A stretch of 23,085 bases of DNA from an uncultured Flavobacteriales bacterium (lineage in GTDB: Bacteria > Bacteroidota > Bacteroidia > Flavobacteriales > Crocinitomicaceae): contig CAMLIF010000060.1 in the NCBI GenBank assembly GCA_946479985.1, positions 1-23,085 on the forward strand. Direction: 5' to 3'. The translations under genes and the position numbers were made by a program. The notes under the pieces were generated by a model. It saw only the letters and a list, made by a program, of their open reading frames with translations. It was not told the origin of the DNA and searched no databases. Shown here piece after piece: positions 13,552 to 23,085 of this stretch. Within the stretch, counting starts at the first letter, position 1, and each line of letters opens with the position of its first letter.

Positions 13552-15492
13552 CTAGTCAAAAAGCGTTTTATACGGAATGGAGAAATAAACCGAAGTTCCT
13601 TCAGCAGGGACAGAAGCAATGTGGAATTTGAAGGCGCCTTTTCTTCTTTTATTCAGAAGAATAATTCTTTTTTCGGTAATCTGAACGGCGGCTGATTCAT
13701 GTTCCTTTGTTGTAGATGTCTGGTTTTCCGCAGAAAATCCTTTTCCGTTGTCGGTAATCCGGATCTCGACCTCCTTTCCTGTTTTTTTGTAGTTGATGGT
13801 CAGCTTCCCCGGTTTGTCTAATCCGGAGAATCCATGCTCAATGGCATTTTCAATGAAGGGCTGTATCAGCATTGGCGGAAGCAGCATATTGTCAGGAGAT
13901 ATTGCTTCGTCAATTTCGATGGAATATTCGAAAGAATCAGTAAAGCGCAATTGCTGCAGGCGAATGTAATCTTTTAGCCAGTTCAATTCCTCCGATAAAG
14001 GAATATTGTCTGTGGATGAATGCTGGAGAATGGAGCGGACCAGTCGTGCAAAGGAAGTGAGCAATTTACCTGATTCCTGGGTGTCTTTACGCAGCATGTA
14101 GGTGTGAATTGCATGCAGGACGTTGAAAATGAAATGTGGATTCATTTGGGTTTGAAGCAATCGCTGTTCCATTTCAACGGCTATCTTCTCATTTTTCAAC
14201 CGGTTGTATCGAATTGTAGTAAAAGCGATAATGGACATGAGAACAATTAGAAGAACAGAACCGAAAACGAAATAATTGCGCTGGCTGATCTGTAAGTCTT
14301 TCAATTCATTGTCTCTTCTAAGCTGCAGGTTTTCCTGTTGTTTTTTTGCCGATTCATAATGCTCTTTCGCTCGTGAAACACCATGCTGAATACGGATATC
14401 ACGGCTTAAATCCTCCAGCGACTTCGATTCTTCCAGGTACTCCAAAGCAATATCGGTTTTCCCCATTGCCTTATAGACTTTATAATATTGCCATAGAAAA
14501 TCGGCTTCTAACTGGCGATAATGTTTTTGGTTTTTTACAAAGTGGTGTTTTGTATTCAGGGCAAGAATGGCTTTGTTATACTGTTTCAATTTGGTATAGG
14601 CAATAGATTCATAGATTCCCATCTTCACCAGGTTGGCGGTATCCTTATCTTTCGTAAACGCACTGATACATTCTTTCGCCAGATCCAATGCTTTTTTAGA
14701 CCTTCCGGTTTCAGCATAAACATGCACCAGGTTGGCTTTTGACACAACTGCATTGGATTCGTCGTTCATCAATTTTTGCAGACGAATAGATTCAACCAGG
14801 TACGGCTCGGCCCTGACAAATAATCCGCGCTCAGCCAGCATAGCACCGTAATTCAGTAGAGCTCTCGATTCGCCCAGATAATCGTGCATTTCTTTTCGGA
14901 GATCAATCGATTTTTTGTAATAGACTTCGGCTTCTTTATAACGTTCCAGTTGTGTTAACAGCAGCGCAACTGCCCCGAGGAACTTTGCTTCGGATATTTT
15001 CGGTCCGTTGCGTTCATAATATTTTAGAAGTGCAAGGTCGTTCTGAAGTGCCTTGTTGTATTCACCAACGTACTTGTAGTAAGCAGAATAGAGTTCCTTA
15101 TTCCGCATGATATGAGAAGTCTTTCCCAGTTTTTCATATACGCTGTCAGATTTTTGGAGATTGATTTTTACCTTTTCCCAATCATTTTCATAGGAATAAT
15201 AAAAACTGTACGCCGCGTATGAAAGGCCAATTCCGCTGCTATATTTCAGCTTGCGCGACAGGCGGAACATACTGTCGGTATAGATCTTAAACATCGAGCG
15301 GTCTCTCCCAAAATAGCTTTTCGCGATATCGTAATAGAGCTTGGCTTTTGTAGTATCTTCTTTTTGGTAGCTGATCTGGTGCAATAAACTGTCGAGTGAA
15401 ACCTGGGTGTAAGACCCATGACTTAAAAATACTATTGCAAGTAAAAGCAGATTTCTCTTTAGCGGGAAAGATGGCACTATCCGGAAATTCAT
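13552..15492 (-). CDS. LytS-type sensor histidine kinase with periplasmic TPRs
   Basis: 646 residues. Signal sequence (about 1-30), a long TPR-like array (about 35-385), a coiled coil, one membrane helix (407-427), then a His_kinase domain with QMNPHFIFNVL (His453), an N-box around Asn549 (IENAIEHG) and a G-box DNGKGF (581-586). This NPHFIF-type kinase normally partners a LytTR regulator, and here the partner gene is directly upstream: the regulator's TGA and the kinase ATG share one base (TGATG), which implies translational coupling. TPR ectodomains on this kinase class are common in Bacteroidota; the signal is unknown. A 380-bp spacer with a large hairpin lies after the stop. Confidence 0.92.
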   Translation of the reverse strand: MNFRIVPSFPLKRNLLLLAIVFLSHGSYTQVSLDSLLHQISYQKEDTTKAKLYYDIAKSYFGRDRSMFKIYTDSMFRLSRKLKYSSGIGLSYAAYSFYYSYENDWEKVKINLQKSDSVYEKLGKTSHIMRNKELYSAYYKYVGEYNKALQNDLALLKYYERNGPKISEAKFLGAVALLLTQLERYKEAEVYYKKSIDLRKEMHDYLGESRALLNYGAMLAERGLFVRAEPYLVESIRLQKLMNDESNAVVSKANLVHVYAETGRSKKALDLAKECISAFTKDKDTANLVKMGIYESIAYTKLKQYNKAILALNTKHHFVKNQKHYRQLEADFLWQYYKVYKAMGKTDIALEYLEESKSLEDLSRDIRIQHGVSRAKEHYESAKKQQENLQLRRDNELKDLQISQRNYFVFGSVLLIVLMSIIAFTTIRYNRLKNEKIAVEMEQRLLQTQMNPHFIFNVLHAIHTYMLRKDTQESGKLLTSFARLVRSILQHSSTDNIPLSEELNWLKDYIRLQQLRFTDSFEYSIEIDEAISPDNMLLPPMLIQPFIENAIEHGFSGLDKPGKLTINYKKTGKEVEIRITDNGKGFSAENQTSTTKEHESAAVQITEKRIILLNKRRKGAFKFHIASVPAEGTSVYFSIPYKTLFD

Positions 15493-16232
15493 CAGATTGT
15501 TTTGAAGTAAGTGAGAATTTCTTCCTTTTTCCGACTCGAAACAGGAACTTCAACATTGTCAGGAAGCAGCAGAAAGCCTCCGTTTCGCTTATCGAATTGT
15601 GCCACACGATGCATGTTCACTAAATAACTTTGGTGTGTGCGGATAAAATGCTCGCTGCCAATAATGCTTTCGAAATGCGCCAGGGTCTTTGAAACCATAA
15701 TTGGCTTTCGGTTGATGAAGAAAAAATGTGTATAAGCGCCATCGGCCAGACAATAGGTGATTTCTTCAATAGCTACTATGTGCAATGAATCTGCGGTATT
15801 CAGTACGATCTTTCTGGGTTCAGTTGTTTTGAACTGCTGACGAAACACTTCCAATTGTTCCAGAACTCTGTCGTTCTGAATGCGGGTTTGGGCTTTCAAA
15901 ACGGCTGAACTCAATTCCGACGGATCGAAAGGTTTTAATAAATAATCAAGCGCCGAAACCTGAAAAGCCTTCAGTGCGAAATCATTGTACGCCGTAATGA
16001 AAATAGTTGGAATATAACGTGGCGCAATGCTATGCAGAATATCGAACCCGGTTTTGTCGTGCAGCTGAATATCCAGTAAGAGCAAATCCGGATTAAAATC
16101 TTCAATTTTTTCCAATGCATAAGACACACTATCAGCTTCGCGGGTTACCAGACCGGGAATACCAATCTGAGATAAAACCAGCTGACAGTTTTCTCTTGCA
16201 ATTTTTTCGTCGTCTATAATTAAGATCTTCAT
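15492..16232 (-). CDS. LytTR-family response regulator
   Basis: 246 residues from the ATG at 16232; the preceding in-frame codon is a TTG and would add one residue. The receiver domain (1-115) has the acidic pocket (IIDDE, Asp7-Asp8), the phospho-acceptor Asp54 in LLLLDIQL, Thr80 in FITAYND and Lys100 in LLKPF. The C-terminal half (about 135-246) is a LytTR DNA-binding domain, recognisable by IEEITYCLADGAYTHFFF and HFIRTHQSYLVNMHRV. It regulates transcription on phosphorylation by the adjacent kinase. Targets are unknown. The 381-bp tandem-repeat region begins about 150 bp upstream of its start, so its promoter abuts that array. Confidence 0.93.
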   Translation of the reverse strand: MKILIIDDEKIARENCQLVLSQIGIPGLVTREADSVSYALEKIEDFNPDLLLLDIQLHDKTGFDILHSIAPRYIPTIFITAYNDFALKAFQVSALDYLLKPFDPSELSSAVLKAQTRIQNDRVLEQLEVFRQQFKTTEPRKIVLNTADSLHIVAIEEITYCLADGAYTHFFFINRKPIMVSKTLAHFESIIGSEHFIRTHQSYLVNMHRVAQFDKRNGGFLLLPDNVEVPVSSRKKEEILTYFKTI

Positions 16233-16258
16233 CAATGGAGGGCTTGAATTGGAGAGTT

Positions 16259-16266
16259 CAAAAATA
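16259..16266 (-). promoter_or_regulatory. Candidate -7 box of the LytTR/kinase operon
   Basis: TATTTTTG on the minus strand matches TAnnTTTG exactly and would give a leader of about 20 nt before the ATG at 16232. The nearest TTG is 22 nt upstream rather than 19. Confidence 0.45.
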
Positions 16267-16404
16267 CGAAAAACCCGTGGCGTCTCGACAAGCTTAATGA
16301 CCGTGGAGAGTATAATAGAATATGATTGTGTTAATTCTTCACGCGTTTCATGGTTTTTTCATTTTCGCCAGGAATTCATGAGTAAAATTACCTTATCCGG
16401 AAGC

Positions 16405-16764
16405 AAACCCATCACGCCGGATTGTAAACCTGACCAAATCTAAGAGCAAACCTATGGTGTTATAATAAGAAACCTAATACCATCTGCGAACAAACTTAAT
16501 ACATCAAGGTCGCAAACCTATCACGTTTATGGATAAACCTATGGTGTTATGCTAACAAACCTAACACATCACGGCCGCAAACCTATCATGTTTAAGAACA
16601 AACCTATGGTGTCATGATAACAAACCTAACCCATCACCGGAATAAACCTACCGCGTATGCGAATAAACCTATCACGTCATGAAGGCAAACCTATCACGCC
16701 GGATTGCTAAACCGAAGAAGTTTAAGAACAAACCTGTCACGTCATGAAAGCAAACCATCTGCTG
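16405..16764. repeat. Tandem array of 17 diverged 21/22-bp repeats (core AAACCTA)
   Basis: AAAC(C/T) begins at 16405, 16426, 16448, 16470, 16492, 16514, 16535, 16557, 16579, 16600, 16622, 16644, 16665, 16687, 16709, 16730 and 16752. Every interval is 21 or 22 bp (mean 21.7, about two helical turns). Eleven units have the full AAACCTA core; the other 14-15 bp of each unit vary but are related. Units 65 bp apart are most alike: the units at 16535 and 16600 differ at 2 of 22 positions, as do those at 16665 and 16730. A degenerate unit may precede at 16384. Because the intervals are not multiples of 3, the array is not coding. It abuts the stop codon at 16765. The remaining 16233-16383 holds only the regulator promoter. 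Confidence 0.92.
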
Positions 16765-18213
16765 TTATTGGTTCACCTGAACCGGAATCTGAATTTCCCG
16801 GCCACTCGCTTCCGCAATAATTACATACGAACCATGTGCGTTGTGCATTTGAACGCTTCCGAATGAACCGTCAGCCTGGTAACTGAACGGAACGCTTCTG
16901 CCGTTGTGGTCCACCACTTTTAATACCTGGTCTATCTTCCCGGTAAAATGAAAAACTCCTGATGAAGGATTCGGGTAAACAGAAACAGAAACCAGTTCAT
17001 TTTCGTTTATTCCAACTGTTCCTACGCTTCCGGTTTTGTAGATAATAGAACCCGACTGCGAGTCCTGGAAGACATAATGAATAATCCCGTTTCTGTAGAT
17101 TACATCGGGATTGGTTTGTGATCCGGTTGGCTCCGTGTTTACCTGTGCTTTTGTAGTTTGGAAATCATTCACGGCCCCAGTCGTTGTAAAAGCACAAAAC
17201 ACCTCATAGTTCGAGGGATCATTTTCCTGCCAAGCTAGAACAATGGTATCCTGAGTTCCTGATATACGCGGATAGTTTTGATTTCCGTTAACATTTGTCG
17301 GAGGGGTGAGCATAAATTCAGTGGAACTTCCAAGAGCAGTGGTTGCCGGATTTGTAGTCACGTAAACACGATTTTTCCCGCTTGCTTTACTGGTAGAAAC
17401 GGTAATTAAATCGGTATTTCTCAGCAGCCCGTGCGGCCCGGTTGACGGACAGGAATTCACCACCCAATTTAACTGATTGATCTGCGAAACGGAAGGATAA
17501 GTAAGCCCGCCATCGTTGGAATATACACCATAAATATCACGGACATTATTGTCGTTATTGCGGAAAAGCATCACTTCCCGGTTTCCGTTTATAAGGTATT
17601 CTGCCGGACAGCAATCGCAGGCCTCTTCCGGAATTGATAAAGCAATATCCATTGTTGGATTGTAGCTCAAACCAGCGTCTGTTGAATGCGCAACAACATA
17701 TCTTGGGTGAACCATCACCGAATCGTGTGCCATATAAACCACGCTAGGATTTCCGTTTTCATCTATATCAAGCGATGGCATCCAGGCCATTCCGGCATCA
17801 TGATCATCTACACGAACCGTATCTGAAAATGTCATTCCGCCATCTGTTGAACGAACTGCGTAAACATTTCCTTCGGTCATTGGTTCCGCTTTGAAAACTA
17901 CAATGATGGTATCGCCTTTTGCTGCTACGTCAGGCCCGGTCCATGTAGCCAAGTAAGCCTCCATATTTTCCGGAAGAAGAGCGACAGGTGTGGAAAAAGC
18001 CGTTCCGTTCCAACGCGCTGCATAGAGTTGTTTCGTCGCACCATTTCCAGCAAGAACCACCGGGATGTTGTTTGCGGTTAAAACCATTCTTGGCCGGAGA
18101 TTCCCGTAGCTGGCGCCATCGGCAACTTCGATTTCAGAATTCCATTGAATCAGGTTTTGAGCTGCGGCCATTCCGCAGAAAGCAACGAATAGTGAAGTGA
18201 GCAGATTTTTCAT
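16765..18213 (-). CDS. Secreted sialidase-like (Asp-box) protein with T9SS sorting domain
   Basis: 482 residues: signal peptide MKNLLTSLFVAFCGMAAAQ, a beta-propeller-like body and a C-terminal type A sorting domain starting VSVYPNPSSGVF about 70 residues from the end. The body carries Asp-box motifs RSTDGGMTF (121-129), HSTDAGLSY (177-184) and YSNDGGLTY (232-239), and a CDCCP segment (199-203) followed by FRNNDNNVRDIYGV. I know this combination from Bacteroidota proteins annotated as exo-alpha-sialidase/BNR-repeat proteins; the Asp boxes are structural, so enzyme activity is not established. It would be exported and then processed or anchored by T9SS. No clear promoter box is seen; the 21/22-bp repeat array begins right after its stop. 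Confidence 0.85.
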   Translation of the reverse strand: MKNLLTSLFVAFCGMAAAQNLIQWNSEIEVADGASYGNLRPRMVLTANNIPVVLAGNGATKQLYAARWNGTAFSTPVALLPENMEAYLATWTGPDVAAKGDTIIVVFKAEPMTEGNVYAVRSTDGGMTFSDTVRVDDHDAGMAWMPSLDIDENGNPSVVYMAHDSVMVHPRYVVAHSTDAGLSYNPTMDIALSIPEEACDCCPAEYLINGNREVMLFRNNDNNVRDIYGVYSNDGGLTYPSVSQINQLNWVVNSCPSTGPHGLLRNTDLITVSTSKASGKNRVYVTTNPATTALGSSTEFMLTPPTNVNGNQNYPRISGTQDTIVLAWQENDPSNYEVFCAFTTTGAVNDFQTTKAQVNTEPTGSQTNPDVIYRNGIIHYVFQDSQSGSIIYKTGSVGTVGINENELVSVSVYPNPSSGVFHFTGKIDQVLKVVDHNGRSVPFSYQADGSFGSVQMHNAHGSYVIIAEASGREIQIPVQVNQ

Positions 18214-18366: not shown

Positions 18367-19617
18367 TTAATTCTTCACCACTCTTTTCACCGCGTTTCCG
18401 TTCTCGGTTTTAAGCTCGAAGAAATAAATTCCATTCTCCAAATCCTTCAGGGAAACGCCTTCACCGGAAACAATGCCCGAACTTTGAATCAACTTCCCTT
18501 GCGCATCATAAAGTATATAATCAGCAGCATTTCCTTCAAACGAAACAGTAAAGACATCTTTGGTTGGGTTCGGAGCAAGTGAAACAGAAATGGTTTCGTT
18601 TTCTTTTATGCCAACCCAAGCTGGTGCATTGCCCTCATCTAAAACCCATAAAAATAAATTATCAATGACCCACAAATTCCCGAGGTTATCCATTTCAATG
18701 GAGACTTTTGGGCTAACGAAATTGATCGGAGAGTTGTTCTCATCATAGTATTGATCCCAAACTTTAGTCGTTACATTGTAATGAGCAAGACCCGTCTTAA
18801 CAGACAATCCGGCGTTGCCAATGAGCGCCCAGATATTCTTATCTGCATCAAATTCAAACTCTAAAATTTTTCCGGTTGGCATATTCATGCAGTTAGTTGC
18901 ACAAATACTATCTACAAAAGTGAGTCCATCAGCGATGGCAAATCCGGCATTATTGGCAACAAAGAGCGAATCAGTTTCGGGGTAAAACTTCATATCCCAA
19001 TTGCCCCAATCCATCAGTTTAGAAGTGTCTGGAGAATAAAGAATATATTGTTGATCGTCCTCGACCCTATACACAGCATCATATTGAGCACCTCCCCAAA
19101 ATAGCCCATTTTTACTTATTGCTTTACTGCATACACTAACCGTACTTTGTGAATTCAGCCCTCCATACCATTTTAGGTAATTTTCACCATCACGTATGCA
19201 CCATACAGTGTCAGCGTCATAATTCAAATTGACACCTTCATCAAATGGTATTGCCAAATTCCAGGTTAATCCATTTAACTGGTATAGACCATCATTTGCA
19301 CATAAAGCAAATGTGTATTGAGATGTAAATGCAAAATCCCGAAAATCCGCGGTTGTTGGAAATAATGGTGTATTTGAATTGTTATAATAGAAATAATCCC
19401 CATCACCTGTCAATTGCTGAATCGCCTCATTATAGGTCAACCAAATATCGTTATTATAAGGATTGACTCTGAAATAATGATTGTCTCCAGAACCACCACC
19501 GCTGGTACTGTACGTATACGCAAAGGGACTCATTTCTTTTATGTCCACGCTTCGCCAGGTTTGTGTACTTGCATCAACCAATTGCAATGAAAAAAGAAAT
19601 ACTAATAAGGTTCTCAT
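18367..19617 (-). CDS. Secreted T9SS propeller-like protein, paralogue A (third copy)
   Basis: 416 residues from ATG 19617, with a signal peptide (MRTLLVFLFSLQLVDAST), a body of about 320 residues and a 72-residue type A sorting domain (VSLAPNPTKDVF to KRVVKN). Body segments such as NPYNNDIWLTY, KNIWALIGN and GNLWVIDN recall two-component-regulator-propeller strands, so a beta-propeller is likely; no enzymatic residues are recognised. The body is close to paralogue C (for example NSQSTVSVCSKAIS and GGAQYDAV), while the C-terminus is almost identical to paralogue B. An upstream ATG at 19629 (MDHAM) is a relic of duplicated neighbour sequence, so I start at the next Met. It is the last gene of the operon. 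Confidence 0.85.
   Translation of the reverse strand: MRTLLVFLFSLQLVDASTQTWRSVDIKEMSPFAYTYSTSGGGSGDNHYFRVNPYNNDIWLTYNEAIQQLTGDGDYFYYNNSNTPLFPTTADFRDFAFTSQYTFALCANDGLYQLNGLTWNLAIPFDEGVNLNYDADTVWCIRDGENYLKWYGGLNSQSTVSVCSKAISKNGLFWGGAQYDAVYRVEDDQQYILYSPDTSKLMDWGNWDMKFYPETDSLFVANNAGFAIADGLTFVDSICATNCMNMPTGKILEFEFDADKNIWALIGNAGLSVKTGLAHYNVTTKVWDQYYDENNSPINFVSPKVSIEMDNLGNLWVIDNLFLWVLDEGNAPAWVGIKENETISVSLAPNPTKDVFTVSFEGNAADYILYDAQGKLIQSSGIVSGEGVSLKDLENGIYFFELKTENGNAVKRVVKN
18449..18561. repeat. 113-bp block identical to 19722-19834
   Basis: Part of the sorting-domain coding region of paralogue A is identical, base for base over 113 bp, to paralogue B, while flanking sequence differs at many positions including silent ones. 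This is expected after recent gene conversion. Confidence 0.85.
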
Positions 19618-19639
19618 AGCATGATCCATTTTTTTGGCT

Positions 19640-20881
19640 CTAGTTTTTCACTACTCTTTTCACCGCGTTTCCGTTCTCAGTTTTAAGCTCGAAGAAATAA
19701 ATCCCACTCTCCAGATCCTTTAGGGAAACGCCTTCACCGGAAACAATGCCCGAACTTTGAATCAACTTCCCTTGCGCATCATAAAGTATATAATCAGCAG
19801 CATTTCCTTCAAACGAAACAGTAAAGACATCTTTAGTTGGATTTGGTGCAAGCGAAACGGAAATGGCTTCATTTTCTTTTATTCCAACCCACGCCGGAGC
19901 GTTTCCTTCATCCAGTACATGTAAAAACAAATTATCTACTACCCATAAATTTCCGAGGTTATCCATTTCAATAGAAACTTTCGACCCACCAAAAAGGATA
20001 GGAGAATTGTTCTCATCATAATACTGATCCCACACTTTAGTCGTCAGGTTGTAATGAGCAAGCCCATCTTTAACATTTAGACTTGAATTACCGATTAAAG
20101 CCCATATGTTTTTGTTAGCATCGAACTCAAGTTCCAATATGATTCCAGCGGGCATATTTGTGCTATTCAAAGCACAGATGCTATCAATAAAAGTGTTTCC
20201 ATCAGCAATAGCCAATCCTCCGTCATTTGCAACAAAAAGAGAATCGGTTCCCGGGTAAAATTTCATGTCCCAATTACCCCAATCCATCAATTTCGATGTA
20301 TCAGGAGAATATATAACAGGTAGATCGTCTATTAGTTTAATAACACCGCTATTTCCTGCACCACCCCATAAATTTCCATTTCCTGTAATGGCTTTTCTAA
20401 AACCAGTGTAGTTTTCCATACCATTAAAACCACCATACCATTTCATGTAATTTTCATTTGTACGAAAGCACAATACGGTGTCAGTATCATAAGCTAAACT
20501 AAGACCTTTGTCAAACGGAATAGCAAGATTCCAATTTAAACCATCTAATTGATAGAGTCCGTAGTTTTCACATATTGCAAAGGTATATTGCTGAGTAAAG
20601 GCAAAATCCCGGAAATCTGAATCTGTTGGAAAAAGTGTGGTATTTGAATTCTGATAATAAGAATAATTCCCTTCACCTGTCAATTGCTGAATTGCATCTT
20701 CGTAAGTCAGCCAAATATCGTTGTTGTATGGATTGATACGAAAATGACGACTATTTACTGAACCGGATCCACTATACGTATAGGCGAAAGGACCCAATAC
20801 TTTTACATCAACACTTCGCCAGGTTTGAGCTGAAGAATTTAGTAACTGCAATAAGAAAAGGATTACTAATAAGGTTCTCAT
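19640..20881 (-). CDS. Secreted T9SS propeller-like protein, paralogue B (second copy)
   Basis: 413 residues from ATG 20881: signal peptide (MRTLLVILFLLQLLNSSAQ), propeller-like body, type A sorting domain (VSLAPNPTKDVF to KRVVKN). It is the most diverged copy in the middle (NGMENYTGFRKAIT, NSGVIKLIDD) and lacks the NSQSTV(S/N)VCSKA segment shared by A and C. The region TSKLMDWGNWDMKFYP and the last 90 residues are nearly the same as in A. Twenty-two nt separate it from the preceding stop, and this spacer contains a copy of the protease gene's end; the resulting in-frame ATG at 20893 is not a good start. It is co-transcribed with its neighbours. Confidence 0.85.
   Translation of the reverse strand: MRTLLVILFLLQLLNSSAQTWRSVDVKVLGPFAYTYSGSGSVNSRHFRINPYNNDIWLTYEDAIQQLTGEGNYSYYQNSNTTLFPTDSDFRDFAFTQQYTFAICENYGLYQLDGLNWNLAIPFDKGLSLAYDTDTVLCFRTNENYMKWYGGFNGMENYTGFRKAITGNGNLWGGAGNSGVIKLIDDLPVIYSPDTSKLMDWGNWDMKFYPGTDSLFVANDGGLAIADGNTFIDSICALNSTNMPAGIILELEFDANKNIWALIGNSSLNVKDGLAHYNLTTKVWDQYYDENNSPILFGGSKVSIEMDNLGNLWVVDNLFLHVLDEGNAPAWVGIKENEAISVSLAPNPTKDVFTVSFEGNAADYILYDAQGKLIQSSGIVSGEGVSLKDLESGIYFFELKTENGNAVKRVVKN
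19722..19834. repeat. 113-bp block identical to 18449-18561
   Basis: Copy in paralogue B of the identical block described at 18449; it encodes the middle of the T9SS sorting domain. Confidence 0.85.
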
Positions 20882-20903
20882 AACTTGATCCATTTTTTGG
20901 ACG

Positions 20904-22157
20904 CTAGTTCTTCACCACGCGTTTCACCACACTTCCTTTTTCGGTAACAACTTCAAAAAGATAGACACCAGCCGGCAGCTCATTTAAAGAAATATTCTCA
21001 CCTGAAATAATAGCGGAAGTTGAAATCTCTTTTCCCTGCACATCACGAATGGTCAATACTGCGCTGTTTCCTTCAAAAGCAAGGTTGATCAGTTCATTGG
21101 AAGGATTGGGGTAAACGTTCAATGCAAACGGAGCGGGAATTTCTTTCATTCCAAGCCAGGTAGGGGTATTTCCTTCATCTAAAATGTGCAGGAAATACTT
21201 GTCTACTACCCACAAATTTCCCAAGGTATCTATTTCAATTGAAATTTGAGAATAGCCAAAATTTATAGAAGAATTACTTTCATCGTAATACTGATCCCAA
21301 ACCTTGGTTGTAACATTGTAATGCGCAAGGCCAGTTTTCACGTATAGACCTCCGTTTCCCATCAATGCCCATATGTTTTTGTTAGCATCAAATTCGAACT
21401 CTAAAATTTTTCCGCCTGGCATATTCGTACAGTTAGCAGAACAAATACTATCCACGAAAGTAATCCCATCGGCTATTGCAAATCCTCCGTCATTTGCTAC
21501 AAATAATGAATCAGTATCAGGATAAAATTTCATGTCCCAGTTCCCCCAATCCATCAACTTAGAGGTGTCAGGAGAATAAAGAGAATATTGCTGATCATCA
21601 TCGACTTTAAATACCGCATCATATTGAGCCCCCCCCCATAAAAGACCATTATTACTGATTGCTTTACTACAAACATTAACGGTGCTTTGAGAGTTAACTC
21701 CTGCAGCCCATTTCAGGTAGTTTTCTCCATTACGGATGCACCATACGGTGTCCAACTCATAGTTTAAATTGACACCCTCATCAAACGGAACTGCTAAGTT
21801 CCAGACCGAATTGCTCAATTGATACAATCCATAATTTCCTGAAAGCGCAAACGTGTAGTTGCTTGTAAAACCAAAATCCCGAAAACTTGAGTTCACTGGA
21901 AATAAAGGTGTATTCGAATTATTGTAATAGAAATATTGACCACCGTCACCTGTTAGTTGTTGAACCGCATCTCCGTATGTCAACCAAATGTCATTGTTGT
22001 ATGGATTGATTCTGAAATAGCGTGTGTTTTCGGATCCTCCTGAGCCAGAATACGCCCATGTAAATGGATTCATGGTTCGAATGTCCACATTCCTCCAAGT
22101 CTGAGCAGATGAAGTCAGTACTTGTAATGACAAAAGAGTTATTAGTAGAGCCCTCAT
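20904..22157 (-). CDS. Secreted T9SS propeller-like protein, paralogue C (first copy)
   Basis: 417 residues from ATG 22157, which overlaps the protease stop as ATGA, so the two genes are translationally coupled. Signal peptide MRALLITLLSLQVLTSSAQ, propeller-like body, then a sorting domain (LNVYPNPSNELINL to KRVVKN) clearly different from that of A and B. It shares with A the segments YFYYNNSNTPLFP, FDEGVNLNYE and NSQSTVNVCSKAIS. A run of nine Gs on the coding strand (21629-21637) encodes the WGGA turn; A and B break the same codons with other bases. The upstream in-frame ATG at 22169 lies within the protease gene. Its position next to the protease suggests it occupies the original locus. Confidence 0.87.
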   Translation of the reverse strand: MRALLITLLSLQVLTSSAQTWRNVDIRTMNPFTWAYSGSGGSENTRYFRINPYNNDIWLTYGDAVQQLTGDGGQYFYYNNSNTPLFPVNSSFRDFGFTSNYTFALSGNYGLYQLSNSVWNLAVPFDEGVNLNYELDTVWCIRNGENYLKWAAGVNSQSTVNVCSKAISNNGLLWGGAQYDAVFKVDDDQQYSLYSPDTSKLMDWGNWDMKFYPDTDSLFVANDGGFAIADGITFVDSICSANCTNMPGGKILEFEFDANKNIWALMGNGGLYVKTGLAHYNVTTKVWDQYYDESNSSINFGYSQISIEIDTLGNLWVVDKYFLHILDEGNTPTWLGMKEIPAPFALNVYPNPSNELINLAFEGNSAVLTIRDVQGKEISTSAIISGENISLNELPAGVYLFEVVTEKGSVVKRVVKN

Positions 22158-23085
22158 AACTTGATCCATTTTTTGGTTAATACCATTCCATCTTTACGCG
22201 TAAACACAACCATGTACACACCACTTGCTAATTTACAGCAATCAACCGTTTTCACAAAAGTTTTTTTGTCTTGTTCCGATTCAACGTATTGTACGGGTTT
22301 TCCATTAAGTTCACAAATTGTAATTGAGCGAATTGGCGTATTAACAGAAACGGTTAATTGATTCCCAGGGTTGGGGAAAATAGAAATTAATGATTCGAAA
22401 TCTAAAGAGCTTATTGTCAATAACGTATCAAAGAGTGGGTTTGCTGCATAACATGAATCGAAGTAAAATGGCGCTAGGGAATCACGTAAGTAAATACTGT
22501 AGGCCATTTTTGGATTATTGATATTTGGATTCAGAGGATACCAAAAATCTTCTGAGGTTGTAGAACTCGCTGGATCGTTTTGGTCAGTATGTCTGCGAAT
22601 AAAATGATAATAGTATCCCTTCAATGTGAGATTTCCGGAGGAGAAATTGGTGATTTCTGCATGAGGTTCCAGTTTGAACGTGTCTTCTATAAATAAGATG
22701 CTGCTGGAATTCGGATCGGGAATATAGCTGGTGTCATTAATCAATCCCAGGGAATTAGTAGTACTCGGTCTTACCCAGTAGTCCAAAATTTGTGTGCTGG
22801 GTAAAATGTAATCGGAGAAATCATAAGTCACTTCATATTCATATCGCTCAACATCGTAATATCGTTCGAGAAACAATGGAAAGTCATCTCCAATTGGGCC
22901 ATTGGAAATGGAATAGAATGGTTCATTCAAAAACAATGTTATTGTATCAACTGCTATTTCCGTTATTGAAACCGGGTCGAGTTCCGGATGCACAACCTGG
23001 TATTCGGGAAAGTCGATCATTTGCAATGCGGCTTCTGCATTTACCAGGCCGTAGCCAGTTTGATGATCGTAACCTACACCACTTA
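22154..23085 (-). CDS. Subtilisin-like (S8) protease, C-terminal part, with T9SS sorting domain; cut by the window edge
   Basis: The frame is open to the right edge, so the N-terminus and catalytic core are outside; about 309 residues remain. The first residues, GVGYDHQTGYGLVNAEAAL, match the end of the S8 catalytic domain (the GxGlvNAeaA helix), which is the basis of the call. The next 200 residues (beta-rich, with DYWVRP and SSGNLTLKGYYYH) look like a P-domain-like or jelly-roll module, and the last 75 form a type A sorting domain (ISIFPNPGNQLTV to LTKKWIKL). An in-frame TTG at 23026 is not a real start. Stop and the next start overlap as ATGA. It is probably the first gene of the operon in view. 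Confidence 0.75.
   Translation of the reverse strand, partial: SGVGYDHQTGYGLVNAEAALQMIDFPEYQVVHPELDPVSITEIAVDTITLFLNEPFYSISNGPIGDDFPLFLERYYDVERYEYEVTYDFSDYILPSTQILDYWVRPSTTNSLGLINDTSYIPDPNSSSILFIEDTFKLEPHAEITNFSSGNLTLKGYYYHFIRRHTDQNDPASSTTSEDFWYPLNPNINNPKMAYSIYLRDSLAPFYFDSCYAANPLFDTLLTISSLDFESLISIFPNPGNQLTVSVNTPIRSITICELNGKPVQYVESEQDKKTFVKTVDCCKLASGVYMVVFTRKDGMVLTKKWIKL

Follow-up and report, generated by a model that had tools for sequence, protein, structure and literature searches.

Genomic context of the repeat array

The window, by which we mean the whole stretch of 23,085 nucleotides that was analysed, holds a long row of short phased repeats between the gene of a LytTR-family response regulator and a BNR-like gene (Table 1). 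The histidine kinase gene is presumably co-transcribed with the regulator gene. A promoter-like TTTTTGTATTTTTG is present in the window, and close variants of it, recognised by eye, are kept at orthologous LytTR loci. Among the matches listed, the close named homologues of the regulator are from Fluviicola, and three more, 92-97% identical, lie on short contigs; judging from its sequence, the window comes from a Fluviicola-like bacterium. In the order to which Kordia belongs, a search for the kinase in 395 genomes returned no match at E 1e-60, a threshold that was too strict.

On the other side of the array, the BNR_2 match of the gene at 16765-18213 is sub-threshold. A preliminary description of the locus had called this a T9SS gene; no T9SS sorting domain was found in it with Pfam (E up to 0.001) or NCBIfam (E up to 0.01), so that the label depends on the look of its C-terminus. 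Three similar tandem genes of 417-421 aa lie further along on the minus strand (window 18367-22169), and the one that was scanned has a T9SS sorting domain.

Table 1. Features around the repeat array, with positions in the window
Feature	Position	Strand	Basis and remarks
TPR sensor histidine kinase gene	13552..15492	-	Pfam His_kinase, HATPase_c, TPR
LytTR-family response regulator gene	15492..16235	-	Pfam Response_reg and LytTR; homologues in Fluviicola; start about 170 bp from the array
Promoter-like TTTTTCGTATTTTTG before the LytTR regulator gene	16259..16273	-	Read by eye; close variants before orthologues
Phased array, 17 units of 21 or 22 bp	16403..16764	.	Core (G/A)CAAACCTA on +, TAGGTTTG(T/C) on -; variable remainder
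65-bp higher-order repeat (units 22+22+21 bp), most regular stretch	16489..16697	.	Tandem Repeats Finder
BNR-like gene, 3' end adjoining the array	16765..18213	-	BNR_2, 24.9 bits (cut-off 31.4)

The stop codon of the BNR-like gene borders on the array, and the preliminary description had allowed for a repeated RNA element in the 3' UTR of that gene. We consider this very improbable: the folding energy of the array is no better than that of shuffles (z +0.76 and +0.89 for the two strands), there is no Rfam match up to E = 1, and no array lies in the 1.5 kb fetched to either side of any of the 11 genes related to the BNR-like gene that were found in 9 of 14 Fluviicola genomes. On this last count we also rejected the idea that the array is kept together with the gene.

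Structure and phasing of the units

Seventeen AAAC(C/T) cores (AAACC in 16, AAACT in one) lie between 16405 and 16752, a span of 347 bp, and each of them starts 21 or 22 bp after the previous one. The first nine start at 16405, 16426, 16448, 16470, 16492, 16514, 16535, 16557 and 16579, and the last eight at 16600, 16622, 16644, 16665, 16687, 16709, 16730 and 16752, which makes five intervals of 21 bp and eleven of 22 bp with a mean of 21.69. In the whole window the AAAC(C/T) word occurs 88 times on the plus strand and 100 times on the minus strand, and outside the array neither strand has two of these words at a distance of 21 or 22 bp. Among 200 single-base shuffles of the window the longest chain had two members, and the 21/22-bp periodicity score of the array is 29.0 compared with at most 6.3 in 300 dinucleotide-preserving shuffles. 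Recount and shuffles thus uphold the unbroken row of 17 cores over 347 bp that had been described earlier. Its start had been placed at 16384 and has to be moved, as the units actually span about 16403 to 16764. A further addition to that description is the 65-bp higher-order repeat, which Tandem Repeats Finder gave as two overlapping rows (16489-16637 and 16513-16697) with 86% matches; the self-identity of the array at lag 65 is 0.64.

Because a mixture of 21- and 22-bp units breaks any reading frame, the array is non-coding, as had been claimed, and a protein-coding repeat was rejected. Over all unit pairs the seven core columns agree in 89% and the other 14 columns in 37.5%. With remainders so different between units a microsatellite was rejected as well, and so was a CRISPR, given a core of 5-7 bp with related remainders and no cas family among the nine window proteins scanned; the earlier statement that the array is unlike either of them is borne out.

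A harder question is whether the array is a functionless minisatellite, that is, a row of units multiplied by slippage and unequal crossing-over whose core was kept by promoting the copying or has simply not decayed yet. Tandem duplication has certainly taken place, as the 65-bp and 43/44-bp higher-order repeats show. However, units one 65-bp step apart should share recent ancestry, and neutral tandem copies should therefore lose core and remainder alike. Between such units 90 of 98 core positions are identical but only 101 of 196 other positions (sites that are not independent of each other), so that the contrast is sharp even here: the core is selectively conserved while the rest of the unit drifts, also between copies of recent common origin. 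Furthermore, a check of the array flanks for inverted repeats, made with 10-mers, gave a single match of 9 of 10 positions, which reaches into the gene. We regard the minisatellite as a possible but rather doubtful explanation.

The neighbouring regulator offers another one. It might bind the TAGGTTTG(T/C) half-sites and control its own operon, or be titrated by them, in which case the array would be an autoregulatory operator. The start of its gene is about 170 bp away from the array, and against what we take to be the LytTR half-site consensus, used here for matching the minus-strand units, nine places at 21/22-bp distance have at most one mismatch (one is exact), with a deviating third position. 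A half-site of 9 bp with a spacer of 12-13 bp makes 21-22 bp, and according to sections of the published work the repeats of LytTR operons are mostly 12 bp apart, some of them 11 or 13 (PMC6193735). These operators resemble the array in being direct repeats of about 21-22 bp from start to start, and the array does lie beside a LytTR gene; they differ in that the sections drawn on describe pairs (PMC6193735, PMC4227749), not rows of 17, and in that orthologous LytTR loci have no array. A survey of 240 genomes of the family gave seven orthologous loci, and the array is absent from all of them. The ten arrays described below hold between zero and seven near-matches per strand in no pattern, a range that stands without a chance expectation, and no LytTR gene was noticed in their neighbourhood. 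Thus the operator fits the core and spacing of the window array but neither the orthologous loci nor the other arrays; we rejected it as a general explanation and think it improbable for the window itself.

The same minus-strand word also allows the array to be read as a string of promoters. The -7 promoter box of the phylum is TAnnTTTG, which TAGGTTTG fits, and nine such boxes stand on the minus strand of the window array. Over the ten other arrays, however, the total is one, so that this reading was rejected and seems to us very improbable.

Search for the core in other genomes

Three AAACCT cores in phase were found in none of the 14 Fluviicola genomes and in 4 of the 240 genomes of the family, at one place each, as against 14 places for the reversed pattern; the core of the window is therefore not widespread. 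When the array was compared by BLAST with the fetched Fluviicola DNA, the best match had an E of 0.02 and was 24 bp long. Wider scans returned 104 stretches from viral contigs, by eye mostly in-frame coding repeats, and at least 117 from genome contigs, many of which are 7-bp microsatellites. The search among relatives that the preliminary description had proposed thus has a divided outcome: the AAACCT core is not found in phase in the 14 Fluviicola genomes, but the same 21/22-bp build occurs there with other cores, in some cases at the same gene position in several genomes.

Arrays of the same build in Fluviicola

A constant-phase scan for any 5-mer in the first 400 kb of G748, a complete Fluviicola genome, gave one microsatellite and one array with the core CCCTTACAA, with which a second G748 array has TTACAA in common. 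Three TACAA words at 21/22 bp occur at 55 places in 9 of the 14 Fluviicola genomes, compared with six places for the reversed pattern. Single matches in G735, G740, G741, G742 and G746 and at G739:C145, G747:C8 and G748:3531582 look coding by eye and were set aside before arrays were counted. Parsing of the TACAA matches into units led to eight arrays in G739, G743, G747 and G748, and lag profiles added one in G736 and a third one in G743. The total is ten arrays of 21/22-bp units in 5 of the 14 genomes, mostly with ACAA-type cores and one to three per genome, plus one that is cut by an assembly gap. For each of the ten, and for the window array, the periodicity score was reached in none of 300 dinucleotide shuffles.

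Such arrays are rare, since an exact 5-mer scan over 2.4 Mb of G743 and G748 gave as phased rows other than microsatellites only two arrays that had already been counted. With a softer lag score, 7 of 632 intergenic clusters reached 11.6 or more: one is an array, three are strongly self-similar at short periods, one is another repeat cluster and two are ambiguous. One intergenic cluster of G743 (L460:14700-15200, lag score 14.8) looks different, with GATACTCyayAGATAAAGCATA units of about 22 bp and a repeated palindrome.

The mean spacing is 21.6-21.8 bp in six arrays (the two of G748, the two of G747, one of G739 and the G743 array at position A1, described below), 21.4 bp in the G736 array and 21.0-21.2 bp in three TTACAA..ATCTC-type arrays of G743 and G739. 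These values come from scripts that permitted units of 20-23 bp only, and the lag profile served as the unconstrained check: in all four arrays or loci profiled, the window included, the leading lags are 21, 22 or near-multiples of them.

By its build the window array belongs to this class of phased arrays, with at least 12 units at 21/22 bp and a core better conserved than the remainder; the assignment rests on architecture and not on proven sequence homology. When its units were compared with those of eight arrays, 2 of 300 column scrambles matched one G743 array as well as the real units did, and the same number was obtained for the reverse complement against a second G743 array; against the remaining Fluviicola arrays the units did not stand out over column scrambles. 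The window array occupies another site and has another core than the Fluviicola arrays, and its core strand is directed away from the nearest gene start, unlike at the position that we describe next.

Shared positions of the arrays

The position A1 lies between a small membrane-protein gene and a gene of 226 aa, which are adjacent in five genomes. Arrays at A1 have periodicity scores of 22.2 in G748, 16.6 in G736, 15.9 in G747 and 11.6 in G743, and the highest score among 33 comparable loci that lack an array is 8.3. The cores at this one position differ from each other, being about CCCTTACAA in G748, CCATACAAA in G747, CCCYACAAGT in G743 and CCCGAACG in G736. In G739 the A1 region is 94% identical to that of G747 over 605 bp. 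Its regular array part falls in an assembly gap and the assembled part, without runs of N, scores 6.5, which is background; it is therefore the one counted apart from the ten scored arrays. G740 has the membrane-protein gene and no array, and the 11 kb fetched from it did not show the 226-aa gene. The product of the 226-aa gene has no Pfam match, and its NCBIfam matches are absent or far below the cut-off. A further G743 array precedes a paralogue of the gene (35% identity) by about 120 bp, in the same orientation as at A1, so that arrays stand before two paralogous members of this protein family (L402:6538-7215, L400:5914-6579, L407:6401-7081, L396:4766-5449).

A second position, A2, lies before a gene with an endonuclease/exonuclease/phosphatase domain and a T9SS sorting domain. 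Arrays are present there in G747 and G748, that is, in two of the nine genomes that have the gene, which means that arrays come and go between genomes. One G739 array matches this G747 array unit by unit but sits on a different contig from the A2 gene of G739. For the minisatellite these positions cut both ways: many orthologous sites are without arrays, as it would predict, but the presence of an array at A1 outlasts changes of the core.

Upstream of the A2 gene, a motif of about TAGTGTTTCAGTTATnnGnCCGCAAAGTA is common to four Fluviicola genomes (L344, L346, L348, L351), at the edge of a site with differing upstream genes. In G748 these include a ParDE toxin-antitoxin pair (Pfam), and others look defence-like by eye. 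The site is perhaps a hotspot of gene exchange.

A possible function of the arrays

The results support the phased, non-coding array with a short core that had been described before, and the best reading of it, in line with the protein binding suggested there, seems to us to be a row of docking sites for a putative sequence-specific protein of Fluviicola, which would bind side by side every two turns of the helix. We hold this to be quite plausible although still somewhat short of probable; the binding of a protein, its co-operativity and its effect are what we infer. Each conserved core would be one half-site of the candidate DNA-binding protein. With successive cores two turns apart, the protein units could sit adjacent and touch head to tail, and about 12 to 19 of them might form a co-operative filament with the DNA. 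Such an array would most likely regulate or shape its intergenic region, or titrate its binder. The earlier claim that all cores lie on nearly one face of the DNA holds only at about 10.8-11 bp per turn; with 10.5 bp they shift round the helix by about one full turn from the first unit to the last. Helical repeat values near 11 bp per turn have been reported in living cells. A model for how the array might work is BldC, a small protein for which parts of its description show head-to-tail oligomers on direct repeats of varying number (PMC5859096); the analogy is one of mechanism only.

Measured against docking sites, the minisatellite is the closest rival, and its model would be the BrickBuilt MITE of Porphyromonas gingivalis, also a member of the Bacteroidota. 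According to sections of its published description, BrickBuilt is intergenic and made of tandem 23-nt units, roughly two turns of the helix, in which some sites are conserved and others variable, and its internal repeats multiply by slippage and unequal crossing-over (PMC4596501). The same sections report it only from P. gingivalis and P. gulae, with a leader and a tail that carry IS5-type terminal repeats and with 19 copies per genome (PMC4596501). The arrays of the window and of Fluviicola differ in having units of 21/22 bp, and the latter number one to three per genome. A further likeness is that to the TAACTGA direct repeats, which are short, intergenic, in some cases arranged in long arrays, known from Bacteroidota too, and candidate binding sites. 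They differ in being heptamers that in the main species mostly stand just before start codons, and the sections of the source used here mention no two-turn phasing with variable linkers (PMC4679880).

It might also be possible that the arrays are iteron- or centromere-like sites for replication, segregation or chromosome organisation. In plasmid iterons and in ParR-type centromeres, direct repeats stand two turns apart and are bound side by side, so that this spacing is typical of such sites, and there are few arrays per genome. Yet no Rep or Par family was recognised among the nine window proteins and ten array-neighbour proteins scanned, apart from the ParDE toxin-antitoxin pair beside one G748 array; none of the nine window proteins was thus recognised as a replication or partition protein. 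Several arrays at separate places of one genome do not fit such a site either, and we think it decidedly improbable.

If the docking-site reading is taken further, Fluviicola may have a class of phased docking arrays in which the two-turn spacing and, for at least one site, the position are kept while the core changes between species, which is what co-evolution of an array with its binding protein would produce. This wider proposal is an unlikely one in our own estimate. If true, it would give bacteria an equivalent of rapidly evolving satellite DNA with its binding protein. Phased direct repeats are mostly known as plasmid iterons, centromeres or short operators; long rows on the chromosome with a fixed spacing, one fixed position and a changing core would be a rare case of co-evolution between a repeat and its binder in bacteria. 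The reading could further lend a meaning to the intergenic tandem repeats that in other Bacteroidota are at present classed as minisatellites. The arrays appear to be undescribed, as no description of them was found among the top-ranked matches in the full-text literature, a scope outside which most subscription papers fall.

Similar arrays in other bacteria

Outside Fluviicola, pairs of AAACCTA at 20-23 bp are abundant in a Prevotella MAG (173), Hoylesella saccharolytica (21), Odoribacter lunatus (51) and a Bacteroidales MAG (146), with 0, 0, 0 and 6 counts, respectively, for the reversed pattern. These are four of 12 genomes that had been chosen for their matches in the genome-contig scan, and in two of the 12 the reversed pattern is the commoner one. 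The many-copy 22-bp arrays of Prevotella, Hoylesella and Odoribacter may be further cases of the docking-array class. Their core of about AAAACCTATGCTTTTG is near-palindromic, however, and they and the Bacteroidales arrays may therefore be of another kind. In Prevotella sp. RGIG4852 (genome G922), where the 173 paired matches stand against none in the control, many intergenic 22-bp arrays have this near-palindromic AAAACCTATGCTTTTG core (L026, L034, L036, L037, L056, L059, L063, L075, L084, L100, L109, L115).

Arrays of 21 bp with a palindromic AAACCTAAGTCTAGGT-like core were seen in Pyrinomonadaceae of the Acidobacteriota (L029, L060), where the reversed pattern is commoner. In Acinetobacter and Psychrobacter (L011, L016, L035, L058, L066) four or five near-identical 22-bp AAACCTA units stand on short contigs; they look like plasmid iterons.
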